Source of the DNA: Stutzerimonas balearica DSM 6083
GTDB lineage: Bacteria > Pseudomonadota > Gammaproteobacteria > Pseudomonadales > Pseudomonadaceae
DNA: 64,000 nucleotides
NCBI RefSeq assembly: GCF_000818015.1
Contig: NZ_CP007511.1
Coordinates: 620,001 to 684,000, forward strand
Reading direction: 5' to 3'
A program made the translations under genes and the position numbers. Each line of letters starts with the position of its first letter. The first letter of the stretch is position 1. The notes under the pieces are model-generated. The model had not been told where the DNA came from, made no database searches, and saw only the letters and a program-made list of their open reading frames with translations. Shown piece after piece: positions 34,342-53,905 of the stretch.

Positions 34342-34361
34342 AGATTGGATGGCGGCACACA

Positions 34362-36626: not shown

Positions 36627-36840
36627 GCCTGCTTTGCGCTCAACGCTGTTGCTAGACAGTTATCTCGATATCAACGGAGTGAACTTGCGACATCACTCGT
36701 TGGCGCTATGTCTTCGACCAGAGACATGCTAGCGGCATGTGGCCAAAGCAGCTCGTCACGAGGAGATCAGGCTAGGTCGTGGCACCTTCGGCAGGCTGCC
36801 GCGACGAGCAAGCCCCGCCAGTCGCTACCGCCGCGGACGC

Positions 36841-37302
36841 TCAGAGCCAGCGGCGGACTCGTGCACGGTAGCGGGCAAATGATTCGCCGAACAATGTTTC
36901 CAGCGCCCACTCTTCGGCTGGGATCTGGAAACGGTTCATGTACAGCACGAAAGCAACTACGCCAAGCAGGGTTAGAGGCGAGGCCAAGACCAGCGCCCAA
37001 GCCGCCAGGATAATGGCAAAGCCTAAGTACATGGGGTTGCGGCTGTACCGGTAGATGCCAGCCTCCACTAATGCAGAAGCCTGCTGCGGCTGCAATGGAT
37101 TAACCGTAGTACGCGCGCGGCGAAACGACAGGACGCCGGCGAGGCACACGCCGAGCCCCAGGAGCAGTATTGGCAAAGCGAAGGTCAGGCGCGCGGTCCA
37201 TGCCAGTTCGAAACCCGGCAATTTGGTTCCCGACAAACCCATCAGCACAGCGATCAGGCCGGCCACGAGCAGCGGTGGCACGCGGTTTTCCAGCGCGCTC
37301 AT
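36841..37302 (-). CDS. Isoprenylcysteine methyltransferase-like membrane protein
   Basis: The 153-residue protein has four hydrophobic helices and the C-terminal ICMT/PEMT motif (LVEAGIYRYSRNPMYLGFAIILAAWALV ... IPAEEWALETLFGESFARYRARVRRWL). These small proteins probably methylate a lipid or thiol substrate, but the true substrate is unknown. They are common in metal-resistance islands. The start is 5 bp from the end of the DsbA-like gene, suggesting one operon dsbB-dsbA-ICMT. Confidence 0.78.
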   Translation of the reverse strand: MSALENRVPPLLVAGLIAVLMGLSGTKLPGFELAWTARLTFALPILLLGLGVCLAGVLSFRRARTTVNPLQPQQASALVEAGIYRYSRNPMYLGFAIILAAWALVLASPLTLLGVVAFVLYMNRFQIPAEEWALETLFGESFARYRARVRRWL

Positions 37303-37306
37303 AGTG

Positions 37307-37987
37307 TCATTCTCGTGCCTTGGCCACTTCGCTGTTCACCAACTGGCGCAGCGGCTCCGGGCCAAACTCGCTGAGCGCACGACCATTGACAAAAAAAGTC
37401 GGCGTGCCACGAACCCCAACGGCTTTAACGTCCTGCATGTCCGTTTCCAGCACGGCGTTGACGCCAGGCGTATGCATGTCCTGGCGGGCCTGTTCCAAGT
37501 TCAAACCGACGCGCTCTGCAGCAGCCCATGCCTGCGTTACCTTGGGGTCGTCGTGCCAACCGGGTTGGGCTTCCAGCACAGCCCCCAACACTTGTTCATG
37601 GAGATTTTGCTTACGCGCCGCCTCCAGCATTCGCGCCACCTCTTCGGAGCCTTGATGGAACAGTACATAGCGCAGCACCAAACGCACGTCTTCCGGGTTC
37701 TCGGCGAGGATCTGCTTCACATAGGGGTGGAAGGCGCGGCATGCCTCGCAGGAAGGGTCAAAGAATTCGACGATGGTCACTGGCGCTTGCGCCGGGCCGA
37801 ACACTGGTGAGTGGAAGCGAACCAACTGGCCGCCGTTCTGTTTGGGTTGTGTCGCGGTCTCTTGGGCTGTCGAACCGGGAGCCTGGGCCTGTTGAGGCGA
37901 TTGCGAGGGGGAATAGAAGAATGCGGCGGCAGCAAAGACGGCCAGGATCACGACACTGACGATCAGGACCACGGAACGGCGATTCAT
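37307..37987 (-). CDS. DsbA-family thiol-disulfide oxidoreductase
   Basis: The 226-residue protein has an N-terminal membrane anchor (VVLIVSVVILAVFAAAAFFY). A Gln/Ala-rich linker leads to a thioredoxin-like domain with FFDPSCEACRAFHPYV (CxxC near residue 81) and the cis-Pro GTPTFFVNG. It would form or exchange disulfides in the periplasm. It overlaps dsbB by 4 bp, so the pair is a self-contained oxidation couple. Confidence 0.85.
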   Translation of the reverse strand: MNRRSVVLIVSVVILAVFAAAAFFYSPSQSPQQAQAPGSTAQETATQPKQNGGQLVRFHSPVFGPAQAPVTIVEFFDPSCEACRAFHPYVKQILAENPEDVRLVLRYVLFHQGSEEVARMLEAARKQNLHEQVLGAVLEAQPGWHDDPKVTQAWAAAERVGLNLEQARQDMHTPGVNAVLETDMQDVKAVGVRGTPTFFVNGRALSEFGPEPLRQLVNSEVAKARE

Positions 37988-38418
37988 GGGGTGGTTCTCC
38001 GACGGATGATTATGAGCAGGATGGCGATAAGGATAAAAGCGAACAAGGCGAGTGCCGGCAGGGGCACCACGCCGAAGAGGGTCATTCCGGCGCCTGAGCA
38101 GGATGGACCAGTGGCCGTGCAGGGCTGGATCGGCTGTGGAATCAGCCCTGCATAGAGCAGCGTGTGAACAAATGCCAGTGCCGCACCGATAGCGGTCAGC
38201 GGCAGGGCATAGTGCCAGACGGTGAAATCCGAGCGGTAGCAGGCGATGGCCAGGATCACCGCCAGCGGAAACATGAAGGCACGCTGGAACCAGCACAACA
38301 CGCAGGGTGCCTGGCCCATCACCTCACCAATGAACAGCGCGGACAGGGTCGATACCAGTGCGACCAGCCAGGTTAGCAGCAGCAGGTTCCAGGGCATGCC
38401 TGAAGGTTGAGGATTCAT
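37984..38418 (-). CDS. dsbB: Disulfide bond formation protein B
   Basis: The 144-residue protein has four membrane helices, CVLCWFQR after the second helix, and a periplasmic loop Cys pair (QPCTATGPSCSGAG). DsbB re-oxidises its DsbA partner using quinone. It is first in the minus-strand dsbB-dsbA-ICMT unit. This small DsbI/DsbB type is often found beside a DsbA-like partner on islands. Confidence 0.88.
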   Translation of the reverse strand: MNPQPSGMPWNLLLLTWLVALVSTLSALFIGEVMGQAPCVLCWFQRAFMFPLAVILAIACYRSDFTVWHYALPLTAIGAALAFVHTLLYAGLIPQPIQPCTATGPSCSGAGMTLFGVVPLPALALFAFILIAILLIIIRRRTTP

Positions 38419-38627
38419 TGCGGTTAACTCCTGGCGATGGCGAGCACTTGCCTCAGACCCGCCATCCAGTTATTTCGAAACATCATGCATCCTCTTATCG
38501 GCAGGACTTGTTAGGACCGTTGCGGACTTCGCCCAACGGCAAAGCGAAAAGCAACCAGCCTCAACGCTGGGTTAAATCCGATGCCAGTGGGAGAATGTCG
38601 CCCTTGCGCAACAAGGGAAGATATCAG

Positions 38628-39587
38628 ATGTCGCGGGACTGGCTGGAAGAACACCAGATAGCATTTTATTTCGCGGCGGTGGTGGCCGCTGCCATTGCAG
38701 GCCTGAGCTCTGCGCAATTCACCGGACTGACGGCCATGGCCATCACACCGGCGATTGCCGTGCTGATGTATGCCATGTTTCTGCAGATTCCTTTTTTGGA
38801 GCTGCGAGAAGCTTTTGCCAACCGCCGCTTCGTCGGTGCCTTGTTGCTGGCCAACTTCCTATTGGTGCCATTGATGGTGTGGCTGGTGACGTGGCCGCTC
38901 TCATCGAACAAGGCCTTGTTGGTCGGCGCGCTGCTTGTCCTGCTGACGCCTTGTATCGATTACGTGGTGGTCTTCACCCACCTGGGCAAAGGGGACTCTC
39001 GTCTGGTGCTCGCGGCGACGCCATTGCTGCTGTTGCTCCAGCTTCTGCTGCTGCCCCTCTACTTGCGGCTAATCCTTGGCCCCGAAGCCGGCACAGTGAT
39101 CGAGCTGTGGCCCTTCGCAGAAGCCTTCCTGTTACTGATCGTCCTACCCTTGGTAGCGGCTGTGCTCACCGAATTTGGCGGACGCCGATCTCTGCTGCTT
39201 CGCGCATGGAGCGCAGGTTGGGCCTGGCTGCCAGTGCCTGCAATGGCCCTGGTTCTAATCGTGGTGGTGGGTTCGCAGATCGCGGCTGTCGTGTACCAAC
39301 TCGACATCCTGGCGCCGTTGCTTCCGGTATACGGAGCGTTTCTACTACTCGCTCCGGCCCTCGGCGTACTCAGCTCCCGGCTATTTGGCTTGGAGGCTTC
39401 TGCCGCACGGGCAGTGGCCTTTAGCTCAGGCACTCGCAACTCGCTTGTAGTGCTTCCCCTGGCCCTAGCGCTCCCGGAGTCCATTCGCGCGCTGGCCGCG
39501 GCGGCTGTGATTACTCAGACACTCGTAGAACTGATTGGTGAATTGATCTACTTACGGGCGATTCCAGCCATGGTCAGAAACAGTTGA
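38628..39587 (+). CDS. Arsenic-resistance / bile-acid symporter-family transporter
   Basis: The 319-residue protein has about ten membrane helices (for example LTAMAITPAIAVLMYAMFLQIPF and ALLVGALLVLLTPCIDYVVVF). It includes the GTRNSLVVLPLALALP stretch seen in ACR3/BASS proteins. LTPCIDYV is like the conserved TPCxxY with the reactive Cys of ACR3. It may export arsenite, but no arsR or arsC is nearby, so the substrate is uncertain. The start at 38628 has AAGGGAAG upstream. Confidence 0.75.
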   Translation: MSRDWLEEHQIAFYFAAVVAAAIAGLSSAQFTGLTAMAITPAIAVLMYAMFLQIPFLELREAFANRRFVGALLLANFLLVPLMVWLVTWPLSSNKALLVGALLVLLTPCIDYVVVFTHLGKGDSRLVLAATPLLLLLQLLLLPLYLRLILGPEAGTVIELWPFAEAFLLLIVLPLVAAVLTEFGGRRSLLLRAWSAGWAWLPVPAMALVLIVVVGSQIAAVVYQLDILAPLLPVYGAFLLLAPALGVLSSRLFGLEASAARAVAFSSGTRNSLVVLPLALALPESIRALAAAAVITQTLVELIGELIYLRAIPAMVRNS

Positions 39588-39612
39588 GCCTCGTCGAAAT
39601 CGGCGAGAGCGC

Positions 39613-39975
39613 TCATGCCTCGTGCTGTGGAGCAAGATTGATCAGCGGCGCAATGATGAGCTGAGCGGAGCGCGCCCAAGAAACCAGTGCCTCAAGATCC
39701 ATCTGTAGAGATTGGGCTTCTGTCCAGATACAAGCACTCTCGGCAGGCACCGTAAGAGCGATGCCCTCAACTATCGTCAGAGCCATCGCATGCAATCTCA
39801 GTAGCTCGTCGCGAATGGAGGTGATTCCACCCAGTTCCACCAAGCAGACGTCCAAGCGATCAACCAGCCGGAGCAGTTGAGAGGTGTCGAAGCTGTCGCG
39901 CAGGTTTTCCAACGCCACGGCGTCCACTTCGCCGTACGGTGTAAGGCGGAAGGATGCGGGAGGAATGTTGATCAT
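39613..39975 (-). CDS. tnpC: TnpC-like transposase-regulator protein of a Tn4652-type transposon
   Basis: The 120-residue soluble, mostly helical protein (RLVDRLDVCLVELGGITSIRDELLRLHAMALTIVEG) has the length known for TnpC of Tn4652, which regulates transposase level post-transcriptionally. The ATG overlaps the stop of a truncated upstream frame that looks like the end of TnpA, as expected for tnpA-tnpC. The family call rests on size and context and is moderate. Confidence 0.55.
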   Translation of the reverse strand: MINIPPASFRLTPYGEVDAVALENLRDSFDTSQLLRLVDRLDVCLVELGGITSIRDELLRLHAMALTIVEGIALTVPAESACIWTEAQSLQMDLEALVSWARSAQLIIAPLINLAPQHEA

Positions 39976-40145
39976 GGCGTTTTCTCGGTATCTAGCTGGC
40001 TAGGTCTGATCACCCGCAGCGAGCCGGCAGCTTGTTGGAACACCGAGTCCTTGATCCAGGGCTCCGGTGGCCGGTTTAGCTTGAGGTTGAATTCGCCGAA
40101 GCGCTTGAGGTTGCTGGTCAGGTAGAGTGGTTGGGCCCCCTTCAG
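39972..40145 (-). pseudogene. tnpA: 3' remnant of a Tn3-family tnpA
   Basis: The last 55-60 codons of a minus-strand frame encode PLYLTSNLKRFGEFNLKLNR PPEPW and end TGA inside the tnpC start. The LT..LKRFG...L pattern resembles the C-terminus of Tn3-family transposases. Upstream of about 40145 the similarity stops, so the transposon is truncated. No Tn3-type terminal repeat is visible. Confidence 0.55.
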
Positions 40146-40190
40146 CATACATAGCGGAACTGGTGTAGACGACTAGCCCTGAGCTAGGCC

Positions 40191-40460
40191 TTGGGCTTTC
40201 AAGCAGCTCCAATGATCGGCACTGAAGTGCTAGGGAGCGGATTACTTCTAAAATTCTGGCTAACACGCTCACACTTAAAAACGCTTCTGGATATGCTGGA
40301 AAAAGGCAAGCCAAGCAGGCGAAAAATTGACACTAACTACTTTCAATACAATGGTTATTTCTTGGGATATAACTCTTCTAAAGATAATGCCGGTAAATAC
40401 GGATTTGAAGAAAGCCCTGCTGAAATCAAGCAAAAAGTGAAAGAGCTTTTACTAATCTAG
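40191..40460 (+). CDS. Doubtful small open frame
   Basis: The 89-codon frame reads LLKFWLTRSHLKTLLDMLEKGKPSRRK and then IDTNYFQYNGYFLGYNSSKD. The second part is AT-rich and looks like real coding sequence. The first part overlaps decayed transposon sequence. It may be the 3' end of a lost gene. I cannot name it. Confidence 0.3.
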   Translation: MGFQAAPMIGTEVLGSGLLLKFWLTRSHLKTLLDMLEKGKPSRRKIDTNYFQYNGYFLGYNSSKDNAGKYGFEESPAEIKQKVKELLLI

Positions 40461-40615
40461 CTCGGTCGAACAAACTAGGTCTATTGCTCGTTGAGTGATC
40501 GTCTCTGAGCATTTTAACTGCTGCCGTTGCTGGCAGCCATGAGTCAAAAATTGCACTCAACGACAGGCAGCTTTTGGCCGACAGGTGCCTGTCGTCACCG
40601 GCTGCAATCGGCCGA

Positions 40616-40772
40616 GGCTGTGTAAAAACGTTTTCGAGCGCGACAGGTACTCAAAACCGGACTGGAAATCGCGCATCTGGGCGAAATCCACATCTGCTGA
40701 GGTGCCGAAAAATTTCAGATTTCACGTAGACGCGCGCACTTCAATTTTGACGAAGCGTTTTTACACACTCTG
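40616..40772. repeat. MITE-like element or IS remnant with TGTGTAAAAACG ends
   Basis: A 150-bp segment is bounded by TGTGTAAAAACG on the left (from about 40619) and CGTTTTTACACA on the right (to about 40769), a perfect 12-bp inverted repeat. It extends imperfectly inward (TTTTCG / CGAAG). There is no gene inside. Size and structure fit a non-autonomous miniature element. The parent IS is not in the window. Confidence 0.6.
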
Positions 40773-40938
40773 GGCCAAAAGCAGGCATTAGATGTGACCA
40801 CGGCACTCGAGGTGATTCAAAACTGCTCTAGACGTTCGTCTTCAGCTGATAGCCATATGGACAGCACACACCACCCAAGGTACGGTTCATTTGCCATGGT
40901 AATACGCCATTATCAAGCGATGCCTAGAGGGATTTAGA

Positions 40939-42597
40939 GTGCACGTTAAAGCCATCAAGCTGATCAACTTCAAAAAATTTCGCGACGAACTTCTAGAATT
41001 CAACGACGACGTCAATATTTTCGTCGGCGACAACAATGCTGGTAAAAGCACAATCTTGGAAGCGTTAGAAATTGTGCTCAATTACAATCATCGTGGACGG
41101 CCCTTCAACGGCGAGTTCTCCCCTGATCTTTTCAATCAGGATGCCGTCACGCGGTTTCTCGCCTCTGACTTGAGCTCCAAGCACCTGCCCAGCCTTATCA
41201 TCGAAGCCTACATTGACGGTGTGCCTGAGTACCGAGGCTCGAACAACAGCCTCAAGGCTGACGCCCAGGGCGTCTTGGTACAAGCCTGTTTCGACCCGTC
41301 GCTGGAGGCCGTATACGAGAGCCACCTGCTGACCAAGCCGAACATCACCAGCATTCCGATCGAATTCTATAAGGTGGAATGGCTCGATTTCGGTTGGAAT
41401 CCGATAAAACCGATCGCTAAGAAGTTTAAGGCGCTGTACATCGACCCCACACGTATCCACCCAACCATGGGGAAGAACCAGTACATTTCGAGCATTCTCA
41501 ACACCGCATTGGCGAAGGAAGAGCTCGTCAAGCTGACCCTCAATTATCGTGAAAACCTGCAGGTGTTTAACAACTCCGGGGAGGTCAGGACGGTCAATGC
41601 CAGCCTTGATGCGGGTCACCTTATCACCGATAGCAAGCTCACCATTGCAGCAAGTACGTTACCTGCGGGCTCCATCCAGACCGGCCTACAGCTTGAGGTC
41701 GATGATGTGCCTTTTCACCTCATCGGCAAGGGTGAACAGAGCAATGTGCAGATTAAACTGGCCATTCAGAACAAATCCCACGACATCGATCTGGTGATGA
41801 TGGAAGAGCCCGAAAATCATCTATCTCACACCAATCTGAACAAGCTTGTGCACTACATCGAAACCCAGCGAGGAGACAAGCAGCTGTTCCTGACCACCCA
41901 CAGCTCGTATGTGTTGAACAAGCTGAGTATCGACAAAATTTGCCTTGTGCAGTCAGGGTACAAAAGGCTGCACACGCTAGACGCTAAAGTGGTGAAGACC
42001 CTCAAGCGTCTTCCTGGCTACGACACCTTGCGGGTGGCACTGTCGGGCAAGGTCATCCTGGTCGAGGGGCCGTCGGACGAACTGGTGCTCAAGAAAATCT
42101 ACCAACGAAAACACAACCGACTGCCTGAGCAGGACGGGATAGATATCATCGTGGTACGCGGTGTAGGTTTCAAGACGTTCATCGAAGTCGGTAAAGAGAT
42201 CGGCACCAAGATCCATGTGCTCAGGGATAATGACGGCGACTATAACGGTAACGTTGTACAAGGACGTCTGGAATACGCTGCGTTTCCTAACATCAAGCTG
42301 TACTCGTCGATGAACGACGCCGAATTTTCGCTTGAGCCAGCGATGATTTATGCCAACGCAGTTGACATTAAAACCCTTGACGCTTTCGCAAAGGAAGTCT
42401 TGTCGACGGAAACCTTCAATATCTACAACGCAGAGGTCTCTCTGGAGGATCGAAGGGAAAATTTGATCCGTTGGTTCAAGAGCGTAAAGGGCAACGGTAA
42501 AGGCGCTCGCAAGGTCGACTCTGCGGTCAAACTGTTCGATGGCGCACTGGACTTCAAGTACCCAGCCTTTCTAGACGAGGTGCTCGATTTTGCCTAA
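40939..42597 (+). CDS. gajA: Gabija GajA, OLD-family ATP-dependent nuclease
   Basis: The 552-residue protein (GTG start after AGAGGGA) has an ABC-type ATPase with Walker A GDNNAGKST (residues 30-38), EEPENHLSHTN as Walker B, and TTHSSYVL as H-loop. The C-terminal TOPRIM nuclease has E376 in ILVEGPSDE and D430/D432 in LRDNDGD. GajA nicks phage DNA when nucleotide levels fall and acts in a complex with GajB. It overlaps the next gene by 8 bp. Length fits the family (about 560-580). Confidence 0.88.
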   Translation: MHVKAIKLINFKKFRDELLEFNDDVNIFVGDNNAGKSTILEALEIVLNYNHRGRPFNGEFSPDLFNQDAVTRFLASDLSSKHLPSLIIEAYIDGVPEYRGSNNSLKADAQGVLVQACFDPSLEAVYESHLLTKPNITSIPIEFYKVEWLDFGWNPIKPIAKKFKALYIDPTRIHPTMGKNQYISSILNTALAKEELVKLTLNYRENLQVFNNSGEVRTVNASLDAGHLITDSKLTIAASTLPAGSIQTGLQLEVDDVPFHLIGKGEQSNVQIKLAIQNKSHDIDLVMMEEPENHLSHTNLNKLVHYIETQRGDKQLFLTTHSSYVLNKLSIDKICLVQSGYKRLHTLDAKVVKTLKRLPGYDTLRVALSGKVILVEGPSDELVLKKIYQRKHNRLPEQDGIDIIVVRGVGFKTFIEVGKEIGTKIHVLRDNDGDYNGNVVQGRLEYAAFPNIKLYSSMNDAEFSLEPAMIYANAVDIKTLDAFAKEVLSTETFNIYNAEVSLEDRRENLIRWFKSVKGNGKGARKVDSAVKLFDGALDFKYPAFLDEVLDFA

Positions 42598-43774
42598 CGA
42601 ACTCTGGGTCGCAGGCGCCGGATCAGGGAAAACGCACAAGATCATTACTGAAGCCATTGAGACCATCAAGGCTGGTGGACGTGTGCTTGTAGTCACCTAT
42701 ACAACCAATAATCAGGCAGAGTTGCGCTCTCGTTTTGTTGAGTTGTACGGTGCTAGCAGTGAGCACTTCGTCGTCAAGGGGCTGTTCTCTTTTTACCTGG
42801 AAGATATGGTGCGTCCCTATCAGAGCGAGGTATTTCCAGATCGGATCACGACTATCTCGTTCACTGAGAACAACCCTCACTTAATATCGGGTACAACCTA
42901 CTACATTGAAGGCAGAGCTGAAAAATCGGAAGATGGCACGATCAATCCACTGCATTACCTGACGCCCTGCAAAACAAAGGCGTACTCCGGGTTTTTGGCA
43001 AAGCTTGCGACCCTCATTGCGAAACTATCCAAAAATGCCCCTGCCAAGCGGTTGAAGGAGATTTATCAAAGGGTCTATTTTGATGAAGTGCAGGATTTGG
43101 TCGGTTGGGACTACGACGTGATCAAATCACTCAACAAGGTCATGGTCGACTCGATCTGTTGTGTGGGCGACTTTCGACAGACAATCTACACAACGACGTT
43201 CGGCCATAAGGCTCCGCAGACGCCTCAACAGAAGGTCGATTACTTCGTCGGGAAAATGAAGTTCGAAAAGCATTCGATGCCGAAGAATCGCAGGTGCATA
43301 CAAGAAATCTGCGACCTCTCCGACACGATCCACCTGGGGCTGTATGACAAGACGGTAACAGGTGTCGAGAAAGTGCCAGACGAAATATCGCATCACCATG
43401 GCACCTTCATAGTGAAACAATCTCAGGTGAGCGATTACTTGGCAGCGTTTCAGCCTCAAGTACTGCGCTGGTCGTCCACCACCGGCACTGGATACCTACC
43501 GGGTAACCTTATCTGTTATACGTTCGGTTCCTGCAAAGGCTTAGGCTTTGATCGAGTGCTTGTGATCCCGTCAGATAAACATCTGAAGTTCATTGGCGGA
43601 AATGCCAAAGTGTTCGACAAGGATAAGACGGAGGAGTCGCGAAACAAGCTATACGTCGCGATTACCCGCGCGCGCTATAGCCTGGCCTTCCTCGTCGAGG
43701 ATAAGAAGGTGAAAGGGCTCCCTTACCCCATATGGGATGGCTCTGGCGCGCTCAATGCAGTGATCGAAAAGTGA
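42590..43774 (+). CDS. gajB: Gabija GajB, UvrD-like helicase
   Basis: The 394-residue protein (TTG start, GAGG 8 bases upstream) has Walker A GAGSGKTHK (residues 8-16), VVTYTTNNQAELRSRF (Ia), YFDEVQDLVGWDYDV (II), VGDFRQTIY (III) and NKLYVAITRARYSL (VI). It is the superfamily I partner of GajA and senses DNA ends. It is about 100 residues shorter than the Bacillus GajB, mainly from insertion subdomains. The overlap with gajA supports a working pair. Confidence 0.86.
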   Translation: MPNELWVAGAGSGKTHKIITEAIETIKAGGRVLVVTYTTNNQAELRSRFVELYGASSEHFVVKGLFSFYLEDMVRPYQSEVFPDRITTISFTENNPHLISGTTYYIEGRAEKSEDGTINPLHYLTPCKTKAYSGFLAKLATLIAKLSKNAPAKRLKEIYQRVYFDEVQDLVGWDYDVIKSLNKVMVDSICCVGDFRQTIYTTTFGHKAPQTPQQKVDYFVGKMKFEKHSMPKNRRCIQEICDLSDTIHLGLYDKTVTGVEKVPDEISHHHGTFIVKQSQVSDYLAAFQPQVLRWSSTTGTGYLPGNLICYTFGSCKGLGFDRVLVIPSDKHLKFIGGNAKVFDKDKTEESRNKLYVAITRARYSLAFLVEDKKVKGLPYPIWDGSGALNAVIEK

Positions 43775-43847
43775 GGCGGAGAGGCTGACGACTCATGTTG
43801 AGTGACGAGAAGCCGCCTCTCCCCGCGGACATTTCAGGAGCAATACC

Positions 43848-44126
43848 ATGACGATGGCCCATGAGCGCACCCGTAGCGTTGTTCAAACACGGGACTTCCT
43901 ACAGGAGCTGGCTAGGGACACGAGCCTTCCTGAAAACGTACGGTACCAAGCAAATAATCTACTTCGGCATTACCCGACAGCAGAAGCCGTCTGGTTGGCT
44001 GGTCGAGTGGAAGAGCGATCCAAGCAAGAGCTTTCCCTATTGGCCGACAAGCATGGACCTCTACATCCGGTGTTAGTCAGCTGGCTGTTAAATGATCCGA
44101 TGTTTTCGGATCACGGAGCCAGCTGA
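43848..44126 (+). CDS. BPSL0761-type small hypothetical
   Basis: The 92-residue protein starts MTMAHERTRSVVQTRDFLQELARD, a pattern I recognise from small proteins on proteobacterial islands. Helical segments (VRYQANNLLRHYPTAEAV) follow. CAGGAG lies 7 bases before the ATG. It has no known activity. It follows gajB by 73 bp and could be a late member of that operon. Confidence 0.6.
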   Translation: MTMAHERTRSVVQTRDFLQELARDTSLPENVRYQANNLLRHYPTAEAVWLAGRVEERSKQELSLLADKHGPLHPVLVSWLLNDPMFSDHGAS

Positions 44127-44338
44127 GCCGGGGCGCAACACTGGCAAGAGGATCCCCCTCGTCAGGTGTTCAAGGGGCAGATGCTGGCTGTGGCCTTGAT
44201 GTCCATCATGCCGTTTAAATAGGCCCCGTTTATCTCTGAGCGGCCCGAAGGGAGCCGTGCACTGGGCGTGATTGACATACCGCCGTGCCGTAACAGCTTC
44301 CCTCGTATCTATAATTGGTGGCTCAGCTAGGAGCCATC

Positions 44339-46864
44339 ATGAGTTTGTTGCCGATTGAATCTGTTTTGCCCGCTTTAAGAGATGCCTTGTCTGCACGTAA
44401 TGAAGTTGTACTTGAGGCAGCGCCGGGGGCAGGCAAAACAACGCGAGTACCAATAGCGCTGCTGGAAGAGCCTTGGCTGGCCGACCAGACTATTGTCATG
44501 CTCGAACCACGTCGACTAGCTGCCAGAGCCGCAGCTGAGCGACTGGCGAGCGAGCTGGGAGAAAGCGTTGGGCAAACAGTCGGCTATCGAATTCGCTTGG
44601 AGAGTAAGGTCGGACCACAGACTCGAATTGAAGTAGTGACTGAAGGCATTCTTACTCGTCGGCTTCAAGACGATCCTGCCCTAGATGGCGTTGGGCTGCT
44701 CATATTTGATGAGTATCATCTGCGTAGTCTCGATGCCGATCTGGCGTTGGCCTTGTGTCTCAACGGCCGTGAGTTGTTGCGCGACGAACCGCCGCTGAAG
44801 GTGCTGCTGATGTCCGCCACGCTGGAAGGCGAGCGCCTGTCGCGCCTGCTGGACGAGGCGCCTGTGGTACGCAGCGAAGGTCGCATGTATCCGGTGGAGC
44901 AGCGTTGGGGGCGGCCGAGTCAGATCGGCGAGGCGCTCGAACCCCGGGTGGTACAGCCCATGCTCCAGGCCCTGGCCGATGAACCTGGCAGCCTGCTGGT
45001 GTTCCTCCCCGGCCAGGCGGAGATTCGCCGCGTCGCCGAGCAGTTGGCCGAGCGCCTCGCTGGCCGGTCAGAGATCCTGCTCTGCCCGCTCCACGGTGAA
45101 CTGGACCTCGCTGCCCAGCGCGCGGCCATCGAGCCGGCACCGGCGGGCAAGCGCAAGGTGGTGCTGGCCACCAACATCGCCGAGACCAGCCTGACCATCG
45201 ATGGCGTGCGCGTGGTGGTGGACGCGGGCCTGGAGCGTGTACCGCGCTTCGACCCGGCCAGTGGCATGACTCGCCTGGACACCCAGCGTATTTCCCGCTC
45301 CTCCGCGACCCAGCGTGCCGGCCGTGCCGGCCGTCTGCAGCCGGGTGCCTGCTACCGGCTCTGGTCTGAGGCCCAGCATGAGCAACTGGCCGCCCACGGG
45401 AGCGCGGAAATCCTCCAGGCCGACCTTGCCGGACTGGCGTTGCAACTGGCGCGCTGGGGGATTGGTGATCCCAATGAACTGGCCTGGCTCGATCCGCCGC
45501 CCACGGCTGCCTACGCCCAGGGCCGTGACCTGCTGCAACGCCTCGGCGCACTGGCCGACGATGGCAACTTGACCCGCCATGGCCAGGCCATGGCCGAACT
45601 GCCCGCCCATCCGCGCATTGCCCACCTGCTGTTACGTGGCCACGCCCTGGGACTCGGCGGCCTGGCCTGTGACCTCGCCGCCCTACTGGGCGAGCGCGAC
45701 ATCCTGCGTGGTGGCGGTGCCGACCTGCACAGCCGCCTCGCCTTGCTGGCCGGTAACGACAAGGCAGCGCGTGGCGCTCGTGGCGGCGTGCAGCGTGCTC
45801 GCCAGCTGGCGCGGCAGTTCCGTTCCTACCTGCGTGGCCCGGCCAGCGAGCCGGTGGCCGATCCGGATCACCCGCGCTGGCTCGGCTGCCTGCTGGCGTT
45901 CGCCTACCCGGACCGCATTGCCCAGCAACGTCGTGCCGGAGGGGCCGATTATCGGCTGGCCAATGGCCGTGCAGCCACCTTTGGCGAGCCGGATGCGCTG
46001 ATGAAGGAGCCCTGGTTGGTGATCGCCGATCTCGGTAGCCGCCAGGGCCAGCGTGAAGAGCGCATCTATCTCGCGGCCGACCTTGATCCCGCACTGTTCG
46101 ACGGCCCTCTGGCCGAACAGGTAAGGTGCCAGGACCTGCTCGACTGGGAAGAGCGCGAAGGTGTGCTGCGCGCCGAACGTCAGGTGAAAGTGGGTGAGTT
46201 GGTGCTGGCCCGCGAAGCCCTTGCCGAACTGGATGACGAGGCCCGCTCGCGTGCGCTGCTCGGTCTGGTGCGACGCAAGGGGCTGGAGCTGCTGCCGTGG
46301 AGTGCGGAGCTGCGCCAGTGGCAGGCGCGGGTGGCGCTGCTGCGCCGACTGGACCTGGCCGACACGGGCAGCAGCGAATGGCCAGACCTCTCCGACGCGG
46401 CGCTTCTGGCCAGCCTGGAGGAGTGGCTGCAGCCCTGGCTGGGCAAGGTCAGCCGCCTCAGCCATTTCGCCAACCTCGACCTCGCCGGCATCCTCCATGG
46501 CCTGCTGCCCTGGCCGCTGCCGCAACGCCTCGACGAGCTGGCGCCGCGTACGCTGGAAGTGCCCTCCGGCTCGCGCATCCGCCTCGACTACAGCGACGAG
46601 ATGCCGGTTCTCGCGGTGCGCCTCCAAGAGCTGTTCGGCCTCGCCGACACTCCGCGCATCGCCGGTGGCCGTCAGGGCGTCAAGCTGCACCTGCTGTCCC
46701 CGGCCCAGCGCCCGGTGCAGGTCACCCAGGACCTGGCGAGTTTCTGGCGCAATACCTACGCGGAAGTGAAGAAAGATTTACGAGGTAGGTACCCTAAGCA
46801 TTACTGGCCTGAGGACCCGCTTGTGGCCCAGGCTACAGCTAGAGCTAAGCCGCGAAAATCGTAG
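44339..46864 (+). CDS. hrpB: Complete ATP-dependent helicase HrpB carried by island 1 (mosaic)
   Basis: The 841-residue DEAH-type helicase has Walker [14 protein letters not shown] (residues 124-127), SATLEG, ETSLTIDGV, QRAGRAGR and the HrpB C-terminal domain ending RYPKHYWPEDP. It aligns end to end with the disrupted host gene. The first 380 bp are about 50% GC with many silent differences from the host 5' fragment. From about 44760 to 46765 it is GC-rich, Pseudomonas-like and about 75-80% identical by eye to the host fragment. The last 100 bp are again AT-richer. Motif II continues HLRS where the host has HERS. TATAAT at 44310 and AGGAG before the ATG give it its own promoter. It probably replaces the broken host gene. 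Confidence 0.9.
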   Translation: MSLLPIESVLPALRDALSARNEVVLEAAPGAGKTTRVPIALLEEPWLADQTIVMLEPRRLAARAAAERLASELGESVGQTVGYRIRLESKVGPQTRIEVVTEGILTRRLQDDPALDGVGLLIFDEYHLRSLDADLALALCLNGRELLRDEPPLKVLLMSATLEGERLSRLLDEAPVVRSEGRMYPVEQRWGRPSQIGEALEPRVVQPMLQALADEPGSLLVFLPGQAEIRRVAEQLAERLAGRSEILLCPLHGELDLAAQRAAIEPAPAGKRKVVLATNIAETSLTIDGVRVVVDAGLERVPRFDPASGMTRLDTQRISRSSATQRAGRAGRLQPGACYRLWSEAQHEQLAAHGSAEILQADLAGLALQLARWGIGDPNELAWLDPPPTAAYAQGRDLLQRLGALADDGNLTRHGQAMAELPAHPRIAHLLLRGHALGLGGLACDLAALLGERDILRGGGADLHSRLALLAGNDKAARGARGGVQRARQLARQFRSYLRGPASEPVADPDHPRWLGCLLAFAYPDRIAQQRRAGGADYRLANGRAATFGEPDALMKEPWLVIADLGSRQGQREERIYLAADLDPALFDGPLAEQVRCQDLLDWEEREGVLRAERQVKVGELVLAREALAELDDEARSRALLGLVRRKGLELLPWSAELRQWQARVALLRRLDLADTGSSEWPDLSDAALLASLEEWLQPWLGKVSRLSHFANLDLAGILHGLLPWPLPQRLDELAPRTLEVPSGSRIRLDYSDEMPVLAVRLQELFGLADTPRIAGGRQGVKLHLLSPAQRPVQVTQDLASFWRNTYAEVKKDLRGRYPKHYWPEDPLVAQATARAKPRKS

Positions 46865-47370
46865 GCTGTTGCTCAATGCGGGCGTGTGAACCGGAACCCA
46901 GTGTTGCCTCGAGAGCAACGCAGGTTGGCTCTCTGTTGAGTGTGCCAGTCAACCGGCGTACTAGGGCCGTGCGAGTTTTACCGTATTGCCATTCGTAGAG
47001 TCGACGTGCCCGTTTTTTGCAGATTTCGGCCCTTTGTAAATGTGTGCTCCGGAACTTAAGCGACGGTTCACCCTTGACACCCTAGTGGAGGATCATAGAT
47101 GTCGTGGACTTTGGCGGCATCGACCATGCATTCCTGGTTGATCACAACGGCCAAGTGATCTTCAGCCTTGACAAGGGTCAGGTGATGACGAACCTCAAGG
47201 ACATCTATCCGGACAGAGCCCTACGGATTGAGTCGGGCATTCAGGATGCCACCTTGCACGGGCAGGAGCGGATTGTCTCTTTCGCCCCAGTGAACGACCG
47301 GTAAACGTCGTCGTCATTAGACACGCGCTTTATGGACGCTTCGGCAGTGAAGCGAGTTGTATCGCAACAT
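46865..47370. other. Gap with a decayed sensor-domain fragment
   Basis: At 47086-47304 a frame without a start encodes DFGGIDHAFLVDHNGQVIFSLDKGQVMTNLKDIYPD. It resembles the periplasmic Cache-type sensor of chemoreceptors or diguanylate cyclases. It is a remnant of about 73 codons. GTTGCCTCGAGAGCAAC near 46907 could be a weak terminator for hrpB. Nothing else is visible. Confidence 0.5.
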
Positions 47371-48840
47371 TCAAAGGTGGTTATGCCAATGCTCCCAGCT
47401 TTTGACTGACTCCGTATTCTCTTCCTCTTCCTCTTCCTTTGTCTCTTTCTTGAGATCTTCTTGCCGAAGTTGCTTTAGCTTCTCCAGTTCACGCACGTAC
47501 TCGTCAACTGGCATACCATTTTTTAATGCGTTCAGAAGTAGCTCCTCGGCCTGGTCATATATACGGTTAGTCCTGATTATATGGGCAGATGAAACGATGT
47601 CTTCGTATCCATCAAGTTTGGCGAATGCAAGATGAATATACCGTTCTACCGAGAGGGGATCTTTGTGGCCAGTCCACAGCATGACGTCGTAAAGAAACTT
47701 TTTGCTATTAAGCAGGGCGCTTCTGAAGTCGTCCTTTTGCTTGAACTTGTGTCTTTTGATTAGGAGTACGAAAAGATTGGTGATGAAAGCATGGCGGAAC
47801 ATGTGTGCACAGACTTTTTCTTCGATGCCGGCGTGACTTCTAAGTTGAATCATTTCATTCGTAATACTGCAGGCACCGAGCGGCTTACCAGTCTTTTCTT
47901 GAACAAAGAGTCTGTCGTGATCCGTGTCCTTGAAGTTGCGAAGAGATATTCTGCGGGCAAACTGAATATATTTCTTAGCTTCGCTTAGTACCACTCTTGA
48001 AATCGGGATAAAACGCTCGGAATAGGTTCCACGTTTCAAGGTTCGCAGACGTAGCAATGGGAACGACATGTTCATGGCATTACGTATGTCCGAAACGGTA
48101 ATTTCAATTATCTCGCTGCGTCGAGCGCCCGTATGCTCAAGCAAGGAAATCACCAGATTCCGTCGAAGTTGAAGGTGTCTCGATGGGTGGATTTTGTTTG
48201 CTGAATCTCGCAAAAGCTTTATATGTTCGCTCGGGATCGGATCGCGCGTGTGGTAGCGCGTTCCAGATACATGAAGAGAGTGGTGATGCAGATAACTCCG
48301 CTTTATCGTTCTTCCTGAGCGCGTTGTGATAGTAAATGTTTTCATTACGGCGCGGATGGTTCCATTCTCTGATACAAATGCATCGTCGCCATAAAGACGT
48401 CCTACGAATTGCAAAAAATCTAGACAGATCCTACCAATTGCTAGGAGTGTAGTTTCGGTGCGCCTATTTACAGTGGGATCGTTGACAGATCGCTCCTTTC
48501 TTAATTCGTCAATGAAGTCTGAGAACTGTTGGTCAGACAGTCCTATAAAGTCAGTTCGGTATCTGAAGCAGTAGCGAACTAGTGGGCTTATTTTGGATGC
48601 ATACTCCCCAATGCTTCCGCCTTTACCGCCGTGCCTTGATAGGCCTTTTCCACCTCGGCCAGGGCGGTCACGTAGTGCGAGCATGTAGAGATTTGCGACG
48701 TTATTGGGCGTGCCATCAGGCCAACAGCAAAACGGCAGGCCAGAACCATCTTTTGTTATAGTACTTCCATGCGCATGGTAGCTAAAGAGTGTTAGCTCTT
48801 TAAGTGGTTTAAATAGTTGTTGGCGAAGGTGGTTTGTCAC
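47371..48840 (-). CDS. Tyrosine recombinase with complete active site (island 1)
   Basis: The 489-residue integrase has box I TGARRSEI (R240), box II AHMFRHAF (H346, R349) and GHKDPLSVERY (His, then Tyr401). All expected catalytic residues are visible, so it probably performs strand exchange. The C-terminus is very acidic and Lys-rich (ETKEEEEEENTE). It is the last gene of a four-gene minus-strand operon and overlaps the coiled-coil gene by 4 bp. Size and site match GinA of the second island. Confidence 0.88.
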   Translation of the reverse strand: MTNHLRQQLFKPLKELTLFSYHAHGSTITKDGSGLPFCCWPDGTPNNVANLYMLALRDRPGRGGKGLSRHGGKGGSIGEYASKISPLVRYCFRYRTDFIGLSDQQFSDFIDELRKERSVNDPTVNRRTETTLLAIGRICLDFLQFVGRLYGDDAFVSENGTIRAVMKTFTITTRSGRTIKRSYLHHHSLHVSGTRYHTRDPIPSEHIKLLRDSANKIHPSRHLQLRRNLVISLLEHTGARRSEIIEITVSDIRNAMNMSFPLLRLRTLKRGTYSERFIPISRVVLSEAKKYIQFARRISLRNFKDTDHDRLFVQEKTGKPLGACSITNEMIQLRSHAGIEEKVCAHMFRHAFITNLFVLLIKRHKFKQKDDFRSALLNSKKFLYDVMLWTGHKDPLSVERYIHLAFAKLDGYEDIVSSAHIIRTNRIYDQAEELLLNALKNGMPVDEYVRELEKLKQLRQEDLKKETKEEEEEENTESVKSWEHWHNHL

Positions 48841-49445
48841 TTGCGATACTCCTCCAGTCGCGTAACTCGCCCGTCTCCGGAAGAAGGGGAGGGGGGGGGT
48901 GGCTGTTCTGGAGGGAGGCTCAGTAGAGCAGTAAGTGCCTGAACGGCATCGCTTGCCCGCTTTTCAAGTAGAGCGGGATCTAGATTGCTACGTATATTTC
49001 TTAACTCGTTAATTGCCAGGCTTAATCCCTGGAGGAGGACCATGTTGGCGCAGCGCTGCTTATCAAGTCTCTCCTCTAGTTCAGTTACTAGTCGCGAAAG
49101 TCCGGACTTAGTGCGTTTTGTTGAAGTGGCCTCTTTGCTGCCATTGACCTTCTCAATGGCCCTCAATGCCGCTAGGCGGAGGGTATCAAGTTCCTTAAAT
49201 CCTCCCTTGAACTGTAAGTTGGCGTGAGATTTTAAAGTGTTGATGCTCATTGGGGATTTTGACTTTATAGCCCCTGAGTCCTCGAAATTGAATTCGAGCT
49301 TGGCTAGCGCTCCTTGGCTTCTGAGAGCCTTTAGAATGTTCTCGTTTTTGGAAAAATAGTCAGGATTACGGTAGATTAGCTTTAAAAGTTCACTGGTTAT
49401 TAATGTGGCGCTAGCATGTGGCTCTAGGTCGGAGATTTTTTTCAT
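48837..49445 (-). CDS. Coiled-coil accessory protein of the island-1 recombinase operon
   Basis: The 202-residue helical protein has SGLSRLVTELEERLDKQRCANMVLLQGLSLAINELRN as a coiled coil (residues about 115-155). A Pro-rich tail, PPEQPPPPSPSS, is coded by a tract of nine G at 48891-48899. It has the place and character of GinD in GInt elements, though it lies third rather than last. It starts one base after the preceding stop. Confidence 0.65.
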   Translation of the reverse strand: MKKISDLEPHASATLITSELLKLIYRNPDYFSKNENILKALRSQGALAKLEFNFEDSGAIKSKSPMSINTLKSHANLQFKGGFKELDTLRLAALRAIEKVNGSKEATSTKRTKSGLSRLVTELEERLDKQRCANMVLLQGLSLAINELRNIRSNLDPALLEKRASDAVQALTALLSLPPEQPPPPSPSSGDGRVTRLEEYRK

Positions 49446-51543
49446 TTAGTCTGTGCTCTGAATTTTTACTACCACGCGCATATGTTGGCCGGTTTCGTCT
49501 GTGAAAAACTCTGGCTCAATCTGGACTTTCCCTGTCTTTATCATGTCGGTGATTGCGTCTTCAAGTTCAGCAGTGTCTACTAGAGCAAAATTATCTGTGT
49601 TGTAACGAATTTTTAGTATTTCGGCTAGATCTTCGTAAGCAGTGATATCGCCATTATGCAAGCTTTCTGCTATGAACTGAGCCTTAGCGCTACGCAAAAC
49701 TGCACCATCAGTGGACTCAGTAATGTAATTCCAAACATGCTGCATGTCGGTGTGCCCGAGCATCCACTGCAGTGTCTCCAGTCCTCCAAAACTGCTCGAG
49801 TGGAAGAATACCATGGAGAAAAAGCGTCGAAGTTGATGTTGTCGGATATAGTACCTTTCTCCTTTTGAATTTAGTGGTAGTTCGAAATAATCGCACAACA
49901 AGTCTAGGTTTCTATTGTAGGCATACATTGTTTGCTGACTAAGCCCGGCATTTCCGAGGAGTCCGGGGGGGGGCAAAGAGGCTAGTCATTTCAGTTATGA
50001 ATCCGCTTTTTAAAAGTCTCTGCTGCATGGAAATTAAGTTTTTAATCATTTTTACGGCAATGGGTTCGATTGGGCGTGCTTGGCGTTGTCTTATGCCGAA
50101 CAGGTTGGATGTGCTTTTTCTATTTAAGAAGATCAACCATCTTTCGCTTTTATCTAGGCAGTCAGTCGAGTGCAAATCGAGCATTTCTCCTATTCGGCGA
50201 GCCATGATTGTTCCAACTACCATCTGGACACATCCAATATAGATGCGTAAGCACTCAATCAGTCCCACATTATTTCTGAGTTCTATGAAGTAATTTGACT
50301 GCTTTCTCAGTGCGCCGTGCCTAATAGACACCGTTTGACATACAAGCCCAAGCTTCCTAATTCCCATGTCGATAAGCTCAGGGGGCATAATGTCTTGTAA
50401 CTCTCCATTGGTAAGTTGCGTAGGGGCAATTCCATTGAGGTTGCAATGCTCTGCCATGCGGCAGAAACCTTCTATTAGAAGTTCTCCATACTTGAAATGG
50501 TACTCGATTGATTTTCTGAAGGCGTCTCTCACTATTGGGTACGGCAGCGTCCGAAACCGAGCAGCTTCAGAGAGTGATGGTTCATAATCAAGTATCTGCT
50601 TCAGCTCTGATACTTCGGGAGCTGGAAGCCCAATTTCATGAAGAATTCCAAGGTTGTATGTTAAAAATCTGTAGGCGCGAAATGGACCGGATGTCATTGC
50701 TTCATGGTCACCTGTCCTGACCGATGAACCGGGATACTCTCTCGATATTATTTCTCTCTCATTATCAGTATAGAATTCTAATGAGCTTAATGTTTTTAGT
50801 TTTAGATGCCCGCCTTTCAGTGTGTTGGCATAAAGCGATTTCGCTAGCTGCAAGGTGTTAGGGGTGCGGACTCCAGCAGTTGATCTTTTTTTATAATATC
50901 CATGCAAATGCAAGGCAGCTCTTGCATAAGGTATTAAATCAAAAGGTATTTCCAGGTGATGCTCATCTAGTTGTTCGTCAGTCACAATGCGCATTCGTGG
51001 ATATTGATCTAGAATGCTATCGAGTTCGATAGAACTGGAAGTGTTTATTAAGCTTAAACAAAATTTGCTGATAGTCTTGGTCCACTCGTAAACCGACTCT
51101 TCCGAACCGTTGACGCTTGAGAAGACGTCTAGCATTCTCTTCATGTGATGGCTGTTGATTCCAGCCAATCCGAATCTGGATAGCTGATATTCTTTTGCAT
51201 TCAGAAGAATGTAATCGGCAACGTGAATGGCCCTGTTAAACATCGTCATCTGTGCGGCTAGTGAACCTAATTCGATCGCCGATCCTCGAACAGAACGTGT
51301 AGATGTTGTTAAAAAATACTTTAGCCCGTCTAGTAATGGCTTGTTTTTTTGGGCAAGCAGAGAAGTTTCGTCGTCTAATGTAATGTCCCAGTTGATCGTG
51401 TTGGGGGTCGCAAAATTGAAATCATATTTCCATATGTGCAAGTCGAAATCACTCAGCAACCAACTTGATTTTTTGTATTCTGTCCTAGGGTCGGTGTAGA
51501 ACGCTTTTAGGAAGTCTAGCTCTGCTGGTAATTCAACATTCAT
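49446..51543 (-). pseudogene. Tyrosine-recombinase-like protein, frameshifted in a 9-G tract
   Basis: Two frames cover one protein of about 700 residues. The 5' part (51543 to about 49970) holds box I-like VGTIMARRIGEMLDL. The 3' part (about 49976 to 49446) holds RQHQLRRFFSMVFF and MLGHTDMQHVWNYI (box II and Tyr). The frames join cleanly as SLFAPP/PGLLGNAGLS at the G run 49965-49973. One base more or less would restore the gene. It may be a true mutation, phase variation or an assembly error. The start overlaps the preceding gene's end by 11 bp. Confidence 0.75.
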
Positions 51544-53815
51544 ATATCAACTTCTCCATTCTGCGGGGGTTACACCTCTGCTCGGCGACATAAAGGTGGT
51601 CTTTCAGTAGTGCGTCATTATCCCTTCTGATCTCGGCAACAACGGCCTTCGTTAGATCTGCCCAGTATCGTGCTACTCCTGTCACTTCTTCGGGTCGTTC
51701 CGCTGTAGCCACTGCTTTCTCTAATGATACGAGGGCGGTCATTATCCCTGGATCCACTGAGATGTAGACCTCTGAGTACTGATTCGCTGAATAGGGTTCA
51801 GTTGTTTGAGTGTTCTCCGGGTTGACCAGGTGGTCAGGGATGTCTTTTAGTGCATGGTTCTTAAGAAATAGATTTAACTCTTCCATTGTCTCGAAGTCTG
51901 CGGCCTCTATGAGGAAGCTGCTATCTTTCATCGCGTCACAGATTAAGCCGCGCTGAAAAATTCTTATCCAGCGGGCTTGGAAGAAGGCTAGTATTGACTC
52001 GGGCAGGTAGTGAGAAAGTTGCAGGCAGTCGTGGTTTGCGTGGCCGAGCGCTTTGGACATGGCTTCGACGCTTTGGGTTTTTAAATATACCTCTACCCCA
52101 CATGAGGCTCGAAGACTAGAAAGGGTGACTCGAGATAAGAAATTTTTTAGTTCAGTACCCCTCAAGGAAGTATGATTTGAAAATTGTTGTGCAAGTCGTT
52201 CAAAAATCCGTGTGTGTTTATCGAATAGCGCTTTGTTCCAAGTCGGAATTACAGCGCTCCGCGGGTGACCGAAACCCTTCCCGCAGGTCAGGAATAACTC
52301 CTTCCATCGGCTGTCGCCAATTCCCTTGAGATATTTTCTTAACGGTGCTGTGATCTTTATTACTTCGAAGATTCGCTTTGTTGAGTTCGCGTTTAGTTGT
52401 ATTTTCTGCTCGCTTAGCTTTCCACCTCTTCTATCCTTGAAGCCGACCAACTGATACCCGGTGTCGGTTTTCACAAAGCCGGATCTTCTACCTTTGTCGT
52501 CATACAAACGAAAATTCTTAAGGAAAGATTCTGTGATCTCATTGTGCTCTGCTACCAGTAAGCATTGGTAGGGATAAAGAGTGCCAGCAGCCGGAAGTCC
52601 AAGTATATTTGCGACATCAGCAGATAATATGGTGTATCCGTATTGGTGTTCGAAGTCCATGCGCGAGGATGGAAAGCCGTTGCTTTGAAAAATCGCGCAA
52701 ATTGATTCGTGATCGTAACTCCGACGCTGCCAGCCTTTTCGAGGTTTGATTTCCGAGGAGTTTATCCGTGTGGTTGCGAGTATACGAAGTTGGACTCTCG
52801 AGTAAAGTTCATTGGCTTGTTCTGTTGCCCAGGATTTTACGGTTTCGATGTCTTTGTGGATACTTTTGAATAATATTTCTATTGCCTCGTTATCAGTTAT
52901 TTCGAGAGGGACTCTAGTGATAAGTTTTTCATGGATTTCCACCCCCTCATCAGACACGGACACTCTTGTTTGCGCTCTGTGTTGTTTGGGGCGGATGGGC
53001 CGTGGTAGTCCATCCCCAAAAGGGGTTGCCCAAACTCCTGATTGTATAAAGGCCTCTTCGCAGTTCGATATGAACCTGTTCCACGTTTTTATCTGGGTTG
53101 GTATATTTAGATTTTCTCTATATGCGGTTAAGAAGTGCTCCTTCATGAAGTGCAAAAAGAATGATTTTATATTTTCTGGGTTTTGGAAGGTTGTAGTTGG
53201 CCACTCCAAAGAGTTCTTCGATAAATAGCTGGCCAGCTTGTTGCACAATGTGGTGTTGCATCTTGCTTGCTTGGCCGAAAAAGTCTTCCATGTCCGGTAG
53301 TACTCTTCTGTAAACTCAGGGCCATGGGAGTGCCATAGTTCTCCCAGCGCGAGAAAACTTGGTACTCCTTTTAGGGAGTCGACTTGCCATCCGTTCCAAT
53401 AGCGCAAGGCCAATGGGTTCAATTTTTTCTGCTGGGAATCCCAGAGTTCTTTCCCTTCTTCGAGGTCGGCCATCAAATAGTCGAAATTGGGCATGCCTGG
53501 AATTTCGTCGCGCAGACTTGTAAGTGTTTCTACGAAACGTCGAGCCCAGCGAATCCGAACAGGCTCTTTGCTATCGGCCAAAGTTCTTGATCGCAATGCA
53601 CCGACAAAACCGATGATGATCGGCTCGCAGCTTCGACTCGACAGATGGACGTAGGAGAGTTCTGCCTCGATGAGTTGGAGGTAGCACTCGAGCAGCTTCA
53701 GCGGAACGTTAATCAACTCCGACGACGCGTGGGTTTGAAAGGCCTTGGCTAGGGGCTCCGAAATTTTTCGGAATGGATAGTTGGGTAAGAACAGGGTGCT
53801 GCTGATGATTGTCAA
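51533..53815 (-). CDS. Large recombinase-like protein, probably catalytically degenerate (island 1)
   Basis: The 760-residue protein has a C-terminal catalytic-domain-like part: LSSLRASCGVEVYLKTQSVEAMSKALGHANHDCLQLSHYLPE, with box II Arg, LGH and a late Tyr. Box I appears as LGLPAAGTLYPYQCLLV, with no Arg at the usual place. It is first in the island-1 operon and begins 90 bp inside the right end. It likely helps bind ends rather than cut, like the poor-motif members of recombinase trios. Confidence 0.7.
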   Translation of the reverse strand: MTIISSTLFLPNYPFRKISEPLAKAFQTHASSELINVPLKLLECYLQLIEAELSYVHLSSRSCEPIIIGFVGALRSRTLADSKEPVRIRWARRFVETLTSLRDEIPGMPNFDYLMADLEEGKELWDSQQKKLNPLALRYWNGWQVDSLKGVPSFLALGELWHSHGPEFTEEYYRTWKTFSAKQARCNTTLCNKLASYLSKNSLEWPTTTFQNPENIKSFFLHFMKEHFLTAYRENLNIPTQIKTWNRFISNCEEAFIQSGVWATPFGDGLPRPIRPKQHRAQTRVSVSDEGVEIHEKLITRVPLEITDNEAIEILFKSIHKDIETVKSWATEQANELYSRVQLRILATTRINSSEIKPRKGWQRRSYDHESICAIFQSNGFPSSRMDFEHQYGYTILSADVANILGLPAAGTLYPYQCLLVAEHNEITESFLKNFRLYDDKGRRSGFVKTDTGYQLVGFKDRRGGKLSEQKIQLNANSTKRIFEVIKITAPLRKYLKGIGDSRWKELFLTCGKGFGHPRSAVIPTWNKALFDKHTRIFERLAQQFSNHTSLRGTELKNFLSRVTLSSLRASCGVEVYLKTQSVEAMSKALGHANHDCLQLSHYLPESILAFFQARWIRIFQRGLICDAMKDSSFLIEAADFETMEELNLFLKNHALKDIPDHLVNPENTQTTEPYSANQYSEVYISVDPGIMTALVSLEKAVATAERPEEVTGVARYWADLTKAVVAEIRRDNDALLKDHLYVAEQRCNPRRMEKLIYEC

Positions 53816-53879
53816 CGAATTCTTGTCCTTGCTTTGGGGTGGAAGATCCCGTATTTGCTGGGTTTAGGTATCTAATGAT

Positions 53880-53904
53880 AAATCCATGCGAATGGCAAAA
53901 TGCG
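53880..53904. repeat. Right attachment site of island 1 (attR)
   Basis: AAATCCATG, nine bases, then AAATGCG, directly before the host codons GAG CGC AGC that continue HrpB motif II. It is an imperfect direct repeat of 12442-12465. GCAAAA lies in the position where the left end, read in reverse, has TTTTGC. Confidence 0.7.
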
Positions 53905-53905
53905 T

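Follow-up and report, generated by a model that had tools for sequence, protein, structure and literature searches.

An island that splits hrpB in Stutzerimonas balearica carries a full-length replacement hrpB, probably rewritten throughout and later overwritten in its middle by host sequence

The hrpB gene of Stutzerimonas balearica DSM 6083 is split within its DExH motif by an island which carries a second, complete hrpB. The window analysed here is a stretch of 64,000 nucleotides (contig NZ_CP007511.1, positions 620,001 to 684,000 of the forward strand), and its features are listed in Table 1. As a whole, the data are probably best explained by an island that splits hrpB and carries a rewritten full replacement, the middle of which was later overwritten by host hrpB. 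A multi-recombinase island entered the DExH motif and split the gene after codon 127. The complete replacement, which is visible in the anatomy and presumably works, would keep the helicase for the host. Rewriting would originally have extended over the entire gene, HER being replaced by HLR. In the lineage of the window, homologous recombination with the hrpB of another genus in the family then overwrote the middle, as breakpoints and conflicting trees show. A wider reading, which we put somewhat below an even chance, is a natural target-and-rescue arrangement: four-gene recombinase islands break conserved genes, hrpB and yggL and possibly more, and a full replacement for the broken gene comes with each branch, the hrpB replacement being kept uncuttable by an amino-acid change and its mosaic being host DNA that overwrote all but both integration sites.

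Table 1 Features of the hrpB region in the window
Feature	Coordinates	Strand	Remarks
Host hrpB 5' fragment, codons 1-127	12070..12450	+	attL next: host TTCCATG joined to island TTTTGC
Island in DExH motif of hrpB, ~41.5 kb	12451..53905	.	Junctions aligned across 16 split genomes
Replacement hrpB, full-length, 841 aa, island-borne	44339..46864	+	TIGR01970 1218.6 bits; near-identical in 8 other genomes
5' segment of island hrpB, rewritten, low GC3	44339..44780	+	
Integration-site position within island hrpB	44711..44725	+	GAGTATCATCTGCGT; DEYHLR vs host DEFHER
GC-rich host-derived tract of island hrpB	44780..46774	+	Nearest is HOST_G195, other genus
3' tail of island hrpB, rewritten; spans second island site (codon 820/821, ~46798)	46774..46864	+	
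Recombinase gene D, 489 aa	47371..48840	-	Phage_integrase PF00589
Gene C, 202 aa	48837..49445	-	No family match above threshold
Gene B, two broken reading frames here	49446..51543	-	Weak Phage_integrase match in sister islands, where it is 698 aa
Gene A, 760 aa	51533..53815	-	No Pfam or NCBIfam match
Host hrpB 3' remnant, codons 128-820	53906..55972	+	
Foreign low-GC tail replacing host hrpB C-terminus; left end of second island	55973..56032	+	Similar tail in HOST_G060
Four genes, 496/642/682/142 aa, ginABCD layout	56063..61954	+	Layout as in PMC5385486

The island hrpB is followed by the minus-strand operon of genes A to D, with the start of gene A about 90 bp from the right junction. Directly 5' of the replacement gene lies a Gabija-type defence pair (GajA and GajB in PADLOC; 40939-43774), and copper/heavy-metal resistance cargo (a response regulator, a CopA-type multicopper oxidase and a sensor kinase) is found at 14818-25478. 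A tRNA was ruled out as the island target, as none was detected in the window by ARAGORN, and a pattern scan of 44100-44400 found no sigma-70 promoter 5' of the island hrpB.

The island hrpB matches the HrpB equivalog model TIGR01970 over its full length, far above the cut-off of 546.15 bits, and scores 905.7 against NF008662, under the cut-off of 1053. An earlier reading of the letters alone (the sequence-only reading) had described its first ~400 bp as low in GC with many silent changes, which was borne out: GC3 is 0.43 in the island 5' part, compared with 0.80 in the host fragment and 0.80 in the island 3' part, and the first 128 codons comprise 29 identical, 72 synonymous and 27 non-synonymous ones relative to the host. 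The strong divergence of the protein was also seen, but its identity, guessed by eye at about 82 %, is 78.9 % over 128 aa (44339-44722 against 12070-12453).

When a two-breakpoint model of the island hrpB was fitted to HOST_G195 (the nearest host relative of the middle) with codon shuffling as control, the breaks were placed at 44780 (2-log-likelihood support 44747-44788) and 46774 (support 46760-46781), and the three segments in order showed identities of 0.69, 0.89 and 0.69. The log-likelihood gain was 53.9 and was reached by none of 60 shuffles (largest 7.9). The sharp change in identity and GC that was to be looked for along 44339-46864 is thus present. It lies about 60 bp (27-68) beyond the integration point, within the tens of bases that had been claimed, although the break itself is slightly beyond the proposed end at 44765. 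With G156 and G220 as references the breaks were at most 6 bases from those obtained with HOST_G195 (the second being poorly confined with G220), and with HOST_G118 a different pair was preferred because G118 departs from the island hrpB after ~46070. The rewriting had been described for the 5' part only; that the 3' end (46774-46861) is rewritten as well had been missed. The end of the host tract is separated from the second site by 24 bp (17-38), and the 3' tail has codons in common with the replacement gene of another island.

The two parts of the gene also differ in their trees. In the 3' tree the island hrpB is sister to HOST_G195 (support 0.83; 0.955 one node up), and in the 5' tree it is grouped with the replacement genes of G028, G001, G201 and G307, plus G249 (0.858), those of G019, G330 and G162 being placed elsewhere. 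GC3 is uniform (0.48-0.49) along the replacement genes of G028, G013, G001 and G019, and is 0.45-0.69 in those of G201, G307, G330 and G162, with similar values on both sides and no switch at the site. Because other replacement genes lack a GC3 switch, and from the trees, the island hrpB most likely descends from a gene that was rewritten over its full length, with host sequence later overwriting the middle. The sequence-only reading had suggested instead that the island end first rebuilt only the 5' part of hrpB, much as dusA islands supply a new 5' end (PMC4482086), and later gained a donor 3' part. The rewritten 5' part does stop near the site, as such an origin would have it; we nevertheless consider this very improbable, given the full-length genes of other lineages, the 7 kb (the recombinase module) between the copy and the host 3' remnant, and the rewriting of the 3' tail as well. 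What stands of the later capture is that the middle came from a host gene; it was not the whole 3' part, as the tail is rewritten.

The host tract ends just inside both island sites (codons 127/128 and 820/821). The template may well have been a remnant of the host gene that had been cut at the two sites beforehand, as in the window, so that the rewritten ends would not have been convertible. Whether this explains the limits of the tract is, in our estimate, evenly balanced; the same limits would result if restoration of either site were selected against.

The second site is occupied in the window itself. Behind the host hrpB 3' piece the last codons are replaced by a foreign tail, followed by genes in the layout of GInts. 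GInts carry a four-gene operon, ginABCD, at the island end, together with variable cargo and short imperfect repeats (Bardaji et al. 2017, PMC5385486), and all four gin genes were needed for excision and integration in the one GInt for which this was shown (PMC5385486). Changed C-termini, an outward promoter and insertions at the end of a duplicated ribonucleotide reductase gene are also described for them (PMC5385486). The island from 55973 has the ginABCD layout and a gene 3'-end insertion with a changed C-terminus, as judged by comparison with the sequences of G019. In G019 the host hrpB is whole except at the tail site, which holds a Gin-type operon; a low-GC3 full HLR hrpB directly follows ginD, and the displaced host tail is found ~17 kb further on. 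A foreign tail of the same kind is present on the whole hrpB of G060.

The replacement hrpB belongs to the island backbone. Window positions 43800-54000 (the copy and the recombinase module) are 99.8-99.9 % identical over their full length in seven other genomes, and in an eighth (G006) they are matched in two pieces, the module being interrupted. The eight other copies of this group (family 1) all differ from the window copy at the same single base. As the copy is near-identical across islands and the host hrpB remnants of these eight genomes are only 73.6-76.0 % identical to it, its GC-rich part was not taken from the present hosts. Purifying selection is observed on replacement genes where it is measurable, with dN/dS of 0.118 (G028/G001) and 0.057 (G307/G249); few pairs are measurable and the rest are saturated. 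Behind their own replacement genes, G028 and G013 contain broken family-1-like hrpB pieces (L063 4977-5673, L064 4758-5454), a sign of one replacement gene taking over from another.

A search with the island hrpB covered 97 genomes, and split hosts with a full copy were followed in 12 members of the genus, including the window. Among 298 family genomes, the HLR-site pattern matched in 27, six of them outside hrpB, leaving 21. The left-junction pattern gave 25 matches in 23 genomes (19 in hrpB and six in yggL). The hrpB of G001 is also split, with a variant island end which the pattern missed, so that 20 hrpB junctions are counted; further variant ends may be missed in the same way. Both HLR and the hrpB left junction were present in 17 genomes, HLR only in four (G008, G009, G249 and G019), the junction only in three (G032, G223 and G285) and neither in 274.

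This distribution bears on whether the hrpB copy is ordinary cargo with no link to the gene that the island targets. Plasmid-borne copies do exist: two matching plasmids encode hrpB with HER, one with a low-GC start, and neither shows a match to A-D or Gin genes in the 20 kb covered. However, 17 of the 21 HLR genomes have the hrpB left junction (Fisher p 3e-21, the species not being independent), and genomes with yggL islands have a second yggL (see below), so we hold ordinary cargo to be quite unlikely. Spread of the backbone on plasmids was considered and rejected, as 3 of 72,556 plasmid records matched and none over more than 24 % of the query. On a P. aeruginosa plasmid (L337 8956-11475), an hrpB with a low-GC3 start, a GC-rich remainder and DEYHER adjoins TerD genes.

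Recombinase A was matched in 29 of the 298 genomes at 1e-10 and lies beside a split hrpB in 16, nine of which represent one recent spread (family 1). All 16 have an HLR copy, frameshifted in G162; recombinase A is interrupted in G006. The ratio of HLR to HER at split loci is 16/0 where the recombinase is present and 1/2 where it is absent (Fisher p 0.018; 0.055 when family 1 is taken as one case), in a table that leaves out G032, which has no hrpB copy, and for genomes that are unevenly sampled and species that are not independent.

HLR hrpB was also found on 59 contigs of named genome records, 56 of them titled Pseudomonas or Stutzerimonas. An island mark was detected within 2-8 kb in 29 contigs, namely a separate hrpB 5' fragment upstream (13), an A-D match (11) or a Gin match (6), with one contig in two classes; the other 30 had no mark in this stretch, which was shortened in several. 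One record titled as a Planctomycetaceae MAG (L260) contains a family-1 type replacement hrpB and is possibly contamination.

The change from HER to HLR at the target, noted in the sequence-only reading, was confirmed: the island hrpB reads GAGTATCATCTGCGT and the unsplit site of relatives reads GARTTYCAYGARCGN. The host site in the window is split into GAATTCCAT (12442-12450) and GAGCGC (from 53906). HER was found in all 36 aligned host-type hrpB genes (a chosen sample, which includes G285, also a split locus) and at the aligned site of the solved HrpB 6eud. The circle joint predicted from the junctions is GGCAAAA-TGCGTG-TTTTGC, inverted arms around six bases (GGCAAAATGCGTGTTTTGC); that of G330 is GACAAAA-TCGTCG-TTTTGTC, and the right end of G307 has no neat fit to such a joint. 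The six bases of hrpB which match the joint spacer are TCCAYG, the last being the first base of the glutamate codon. A glutamate codon is always GAR, so the spacer-end G and the following A cannot be removed silently. Since CAY GAR always keeps both, an amino-acid change would be needed to make hrpB uncuttable, and both are absent with HLR.

HLR is therefore a plausible masking of the island copy from its own recombinases, an immunity already suggested in the sequence-only reading, as far as can be judged from sequence. The surviving 5' end would leave the island hrpB with no recombinase target, and we lean slightly towards masking as the probable effect of this, perhaps the selected one. Consistent with masking, full HER copies at split loci (G223 and G285) occur only where recombinase A has no match. 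Against it, replacement yggL genes retain the site residues DEFQEL with silent differences only, and HLR is present alone in the unsplit hrpB of G008, G009 and G249. GInts at the tail site also carry HLR copies, which counts against masking because HLR cannot mask the tail site. In a P. veronii record (L259 4777-7334) an HLR hrpB ends at codon 825 and is followed by a ginA match; a rewritten tail is thus no guarantee of immunity.

The competing reading is that HLR is a mark of descent from an old divergent hrpB lineage, carried as cargo and unrelated to the site. The occurrence of HLR on two island types and at the native loci of G008, G009 and G249 fits this, and as no host piece in cis spans the split site, HLR would persist without selection. 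It has to accommodate, however, that the two bases lost are those which silent change cannot remove (a sequence argument), that HER copies at split loci are confined to those lacking recombinase A, and that in the 3' tree certain HLR genes group with HER hosts of genus g51 (0.997), a placement that requires several origins or repeated sparing of the site. HLR copies do not form one clade in the trees, and they may have one origin or several. On balance we give simple descent a little less than even credence, and masking remains the reading that we slightly prefer.

Several loci depart from the common pattern. In G032, hrpB is cut at codon 128, the left half and a tail piece lying ~110 kb apart (L237 and L238), and no other hrpB copy was found in this genome, which shows that hrpB can be lost. 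G223 and G285 have the full HER copy at the split locus. That of G223 retains a low-GC start, and its upstream stretch resembles that of the window copy, so that it looks like a replacement gene overwritten through the integration site. A 9.5-kb part of the island is found at 95 % identity in G042, where recombinase A is not matched. The hrpB of this genome is a hybrid: up to ~45090 it agrees with the window copy except for one mismatch, and beyond that point it matches a host gene at 0.90. The recombinases of G042 appear to have been removed by recombination between replacement and remnant. In the case of G008, G009 and G249, the single HLR hrpB has native flanks.

Recombinases 34-36 % identical to A adjoin other genes. 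In G217, G220 and G156 it is yggL that is interrupted, at a site of the hrpB kind (GAYGARTTYCAR before GAR). All three genomes have a whole yggL in addition to the split one, against a single match in each of the remaining five genomes of the yggL search. The distance between the whole yggL and the left half of the split one is a few hundred bases in G220 and G156 and ~6 kb in G217. In G220 and G156 the recombinases are found on another contig than the left half, and one island presumably joins them. Further islands related by recombinase A lie in an antiporter gene of G306 and, on the second replicon of G032, in a gene of terD type; in G330 (L300), left junctions occur at hrpB as well as at yggL.

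Gene B is broken in the window, G015 and G006 (and is shorter in the latter two), and is open in six of the nine family-1 genomes; because of the broken gene B, this particular island is probably no longer mobile. Gene D matches GinA (hhalign probability 93, E 3.4e-7), and no significant match was obtained for genes A, B and C to the Gin profiles used. None of the four matched a known defence system in PADLOC, and relatives of gene A are named 'hypothetical protein' or 'uncharacterized' in the sources. Identity with a gamma-mobile-trio element was rejected, as the 10 proteins scanned gave no match to the NCBIfam GMT models, which we take as markers of such elements.

If the wider reading is true, a whole rewritten replacement would account for the persistence of islands inside conserved genes and for the odd second copies of housekeeping genes in some bacteria. 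It would also explain island trapping, as in the apparent loss of recombinases from G042 through replacement-remnant recombination.

Sparing of the target by rebuilding one end is known for islands. The dusA islands interrupt a conserved protein gene close to its 5' end and provide replacement sequence (PMC4482086), and the hrpB island resembles them in both respects. In dusA islands, however, a new 5' end is fused to the host 3' part (PMC4482086), whereas the hrpB island brings a whole separate gene, complete and 7 kb from the remnant. In P. aeruginosa, hrpB is likewise named as a target of genomic islands, in one sentence of PMC8373256; the word hrpB was not found in two of the four references given there (PMC4821235 and PMC7809047). 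A search of the open-licence literature, mostly titles and the starts of abstracts, found no paper on an island-borne replacement hrpB or yggL.

The island at 12451-53905 resembles GInts in having three large recombinase-like proteins and a smaller one, cargo, imperfect repeats and a six-base spacer (PMC5385486), with the recombinase operon at one end and the imperfect repeat at the other. It lacks a ginABCD operon in that order: its four genes have other sizes and another order (760, 698, 202 and 489 aa from the junction, unlike GInts; PMC5385486), and D alone matches Gin. The replacement copy of the target is a further difference, as it is without mention in the part of the GInt description considered here (PMC5385486). 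Engineered home-and-rescue gene drives are similar in part, as there too the gene disrupted by the element is supplied anew in recoded form (PMC7968924). The hrpB island differs from these drives in being a natural bacterial island with neither a homing nuclease nor a known inheritance bias; it would offer a natural, testable counterpart to engineered rescue drives.
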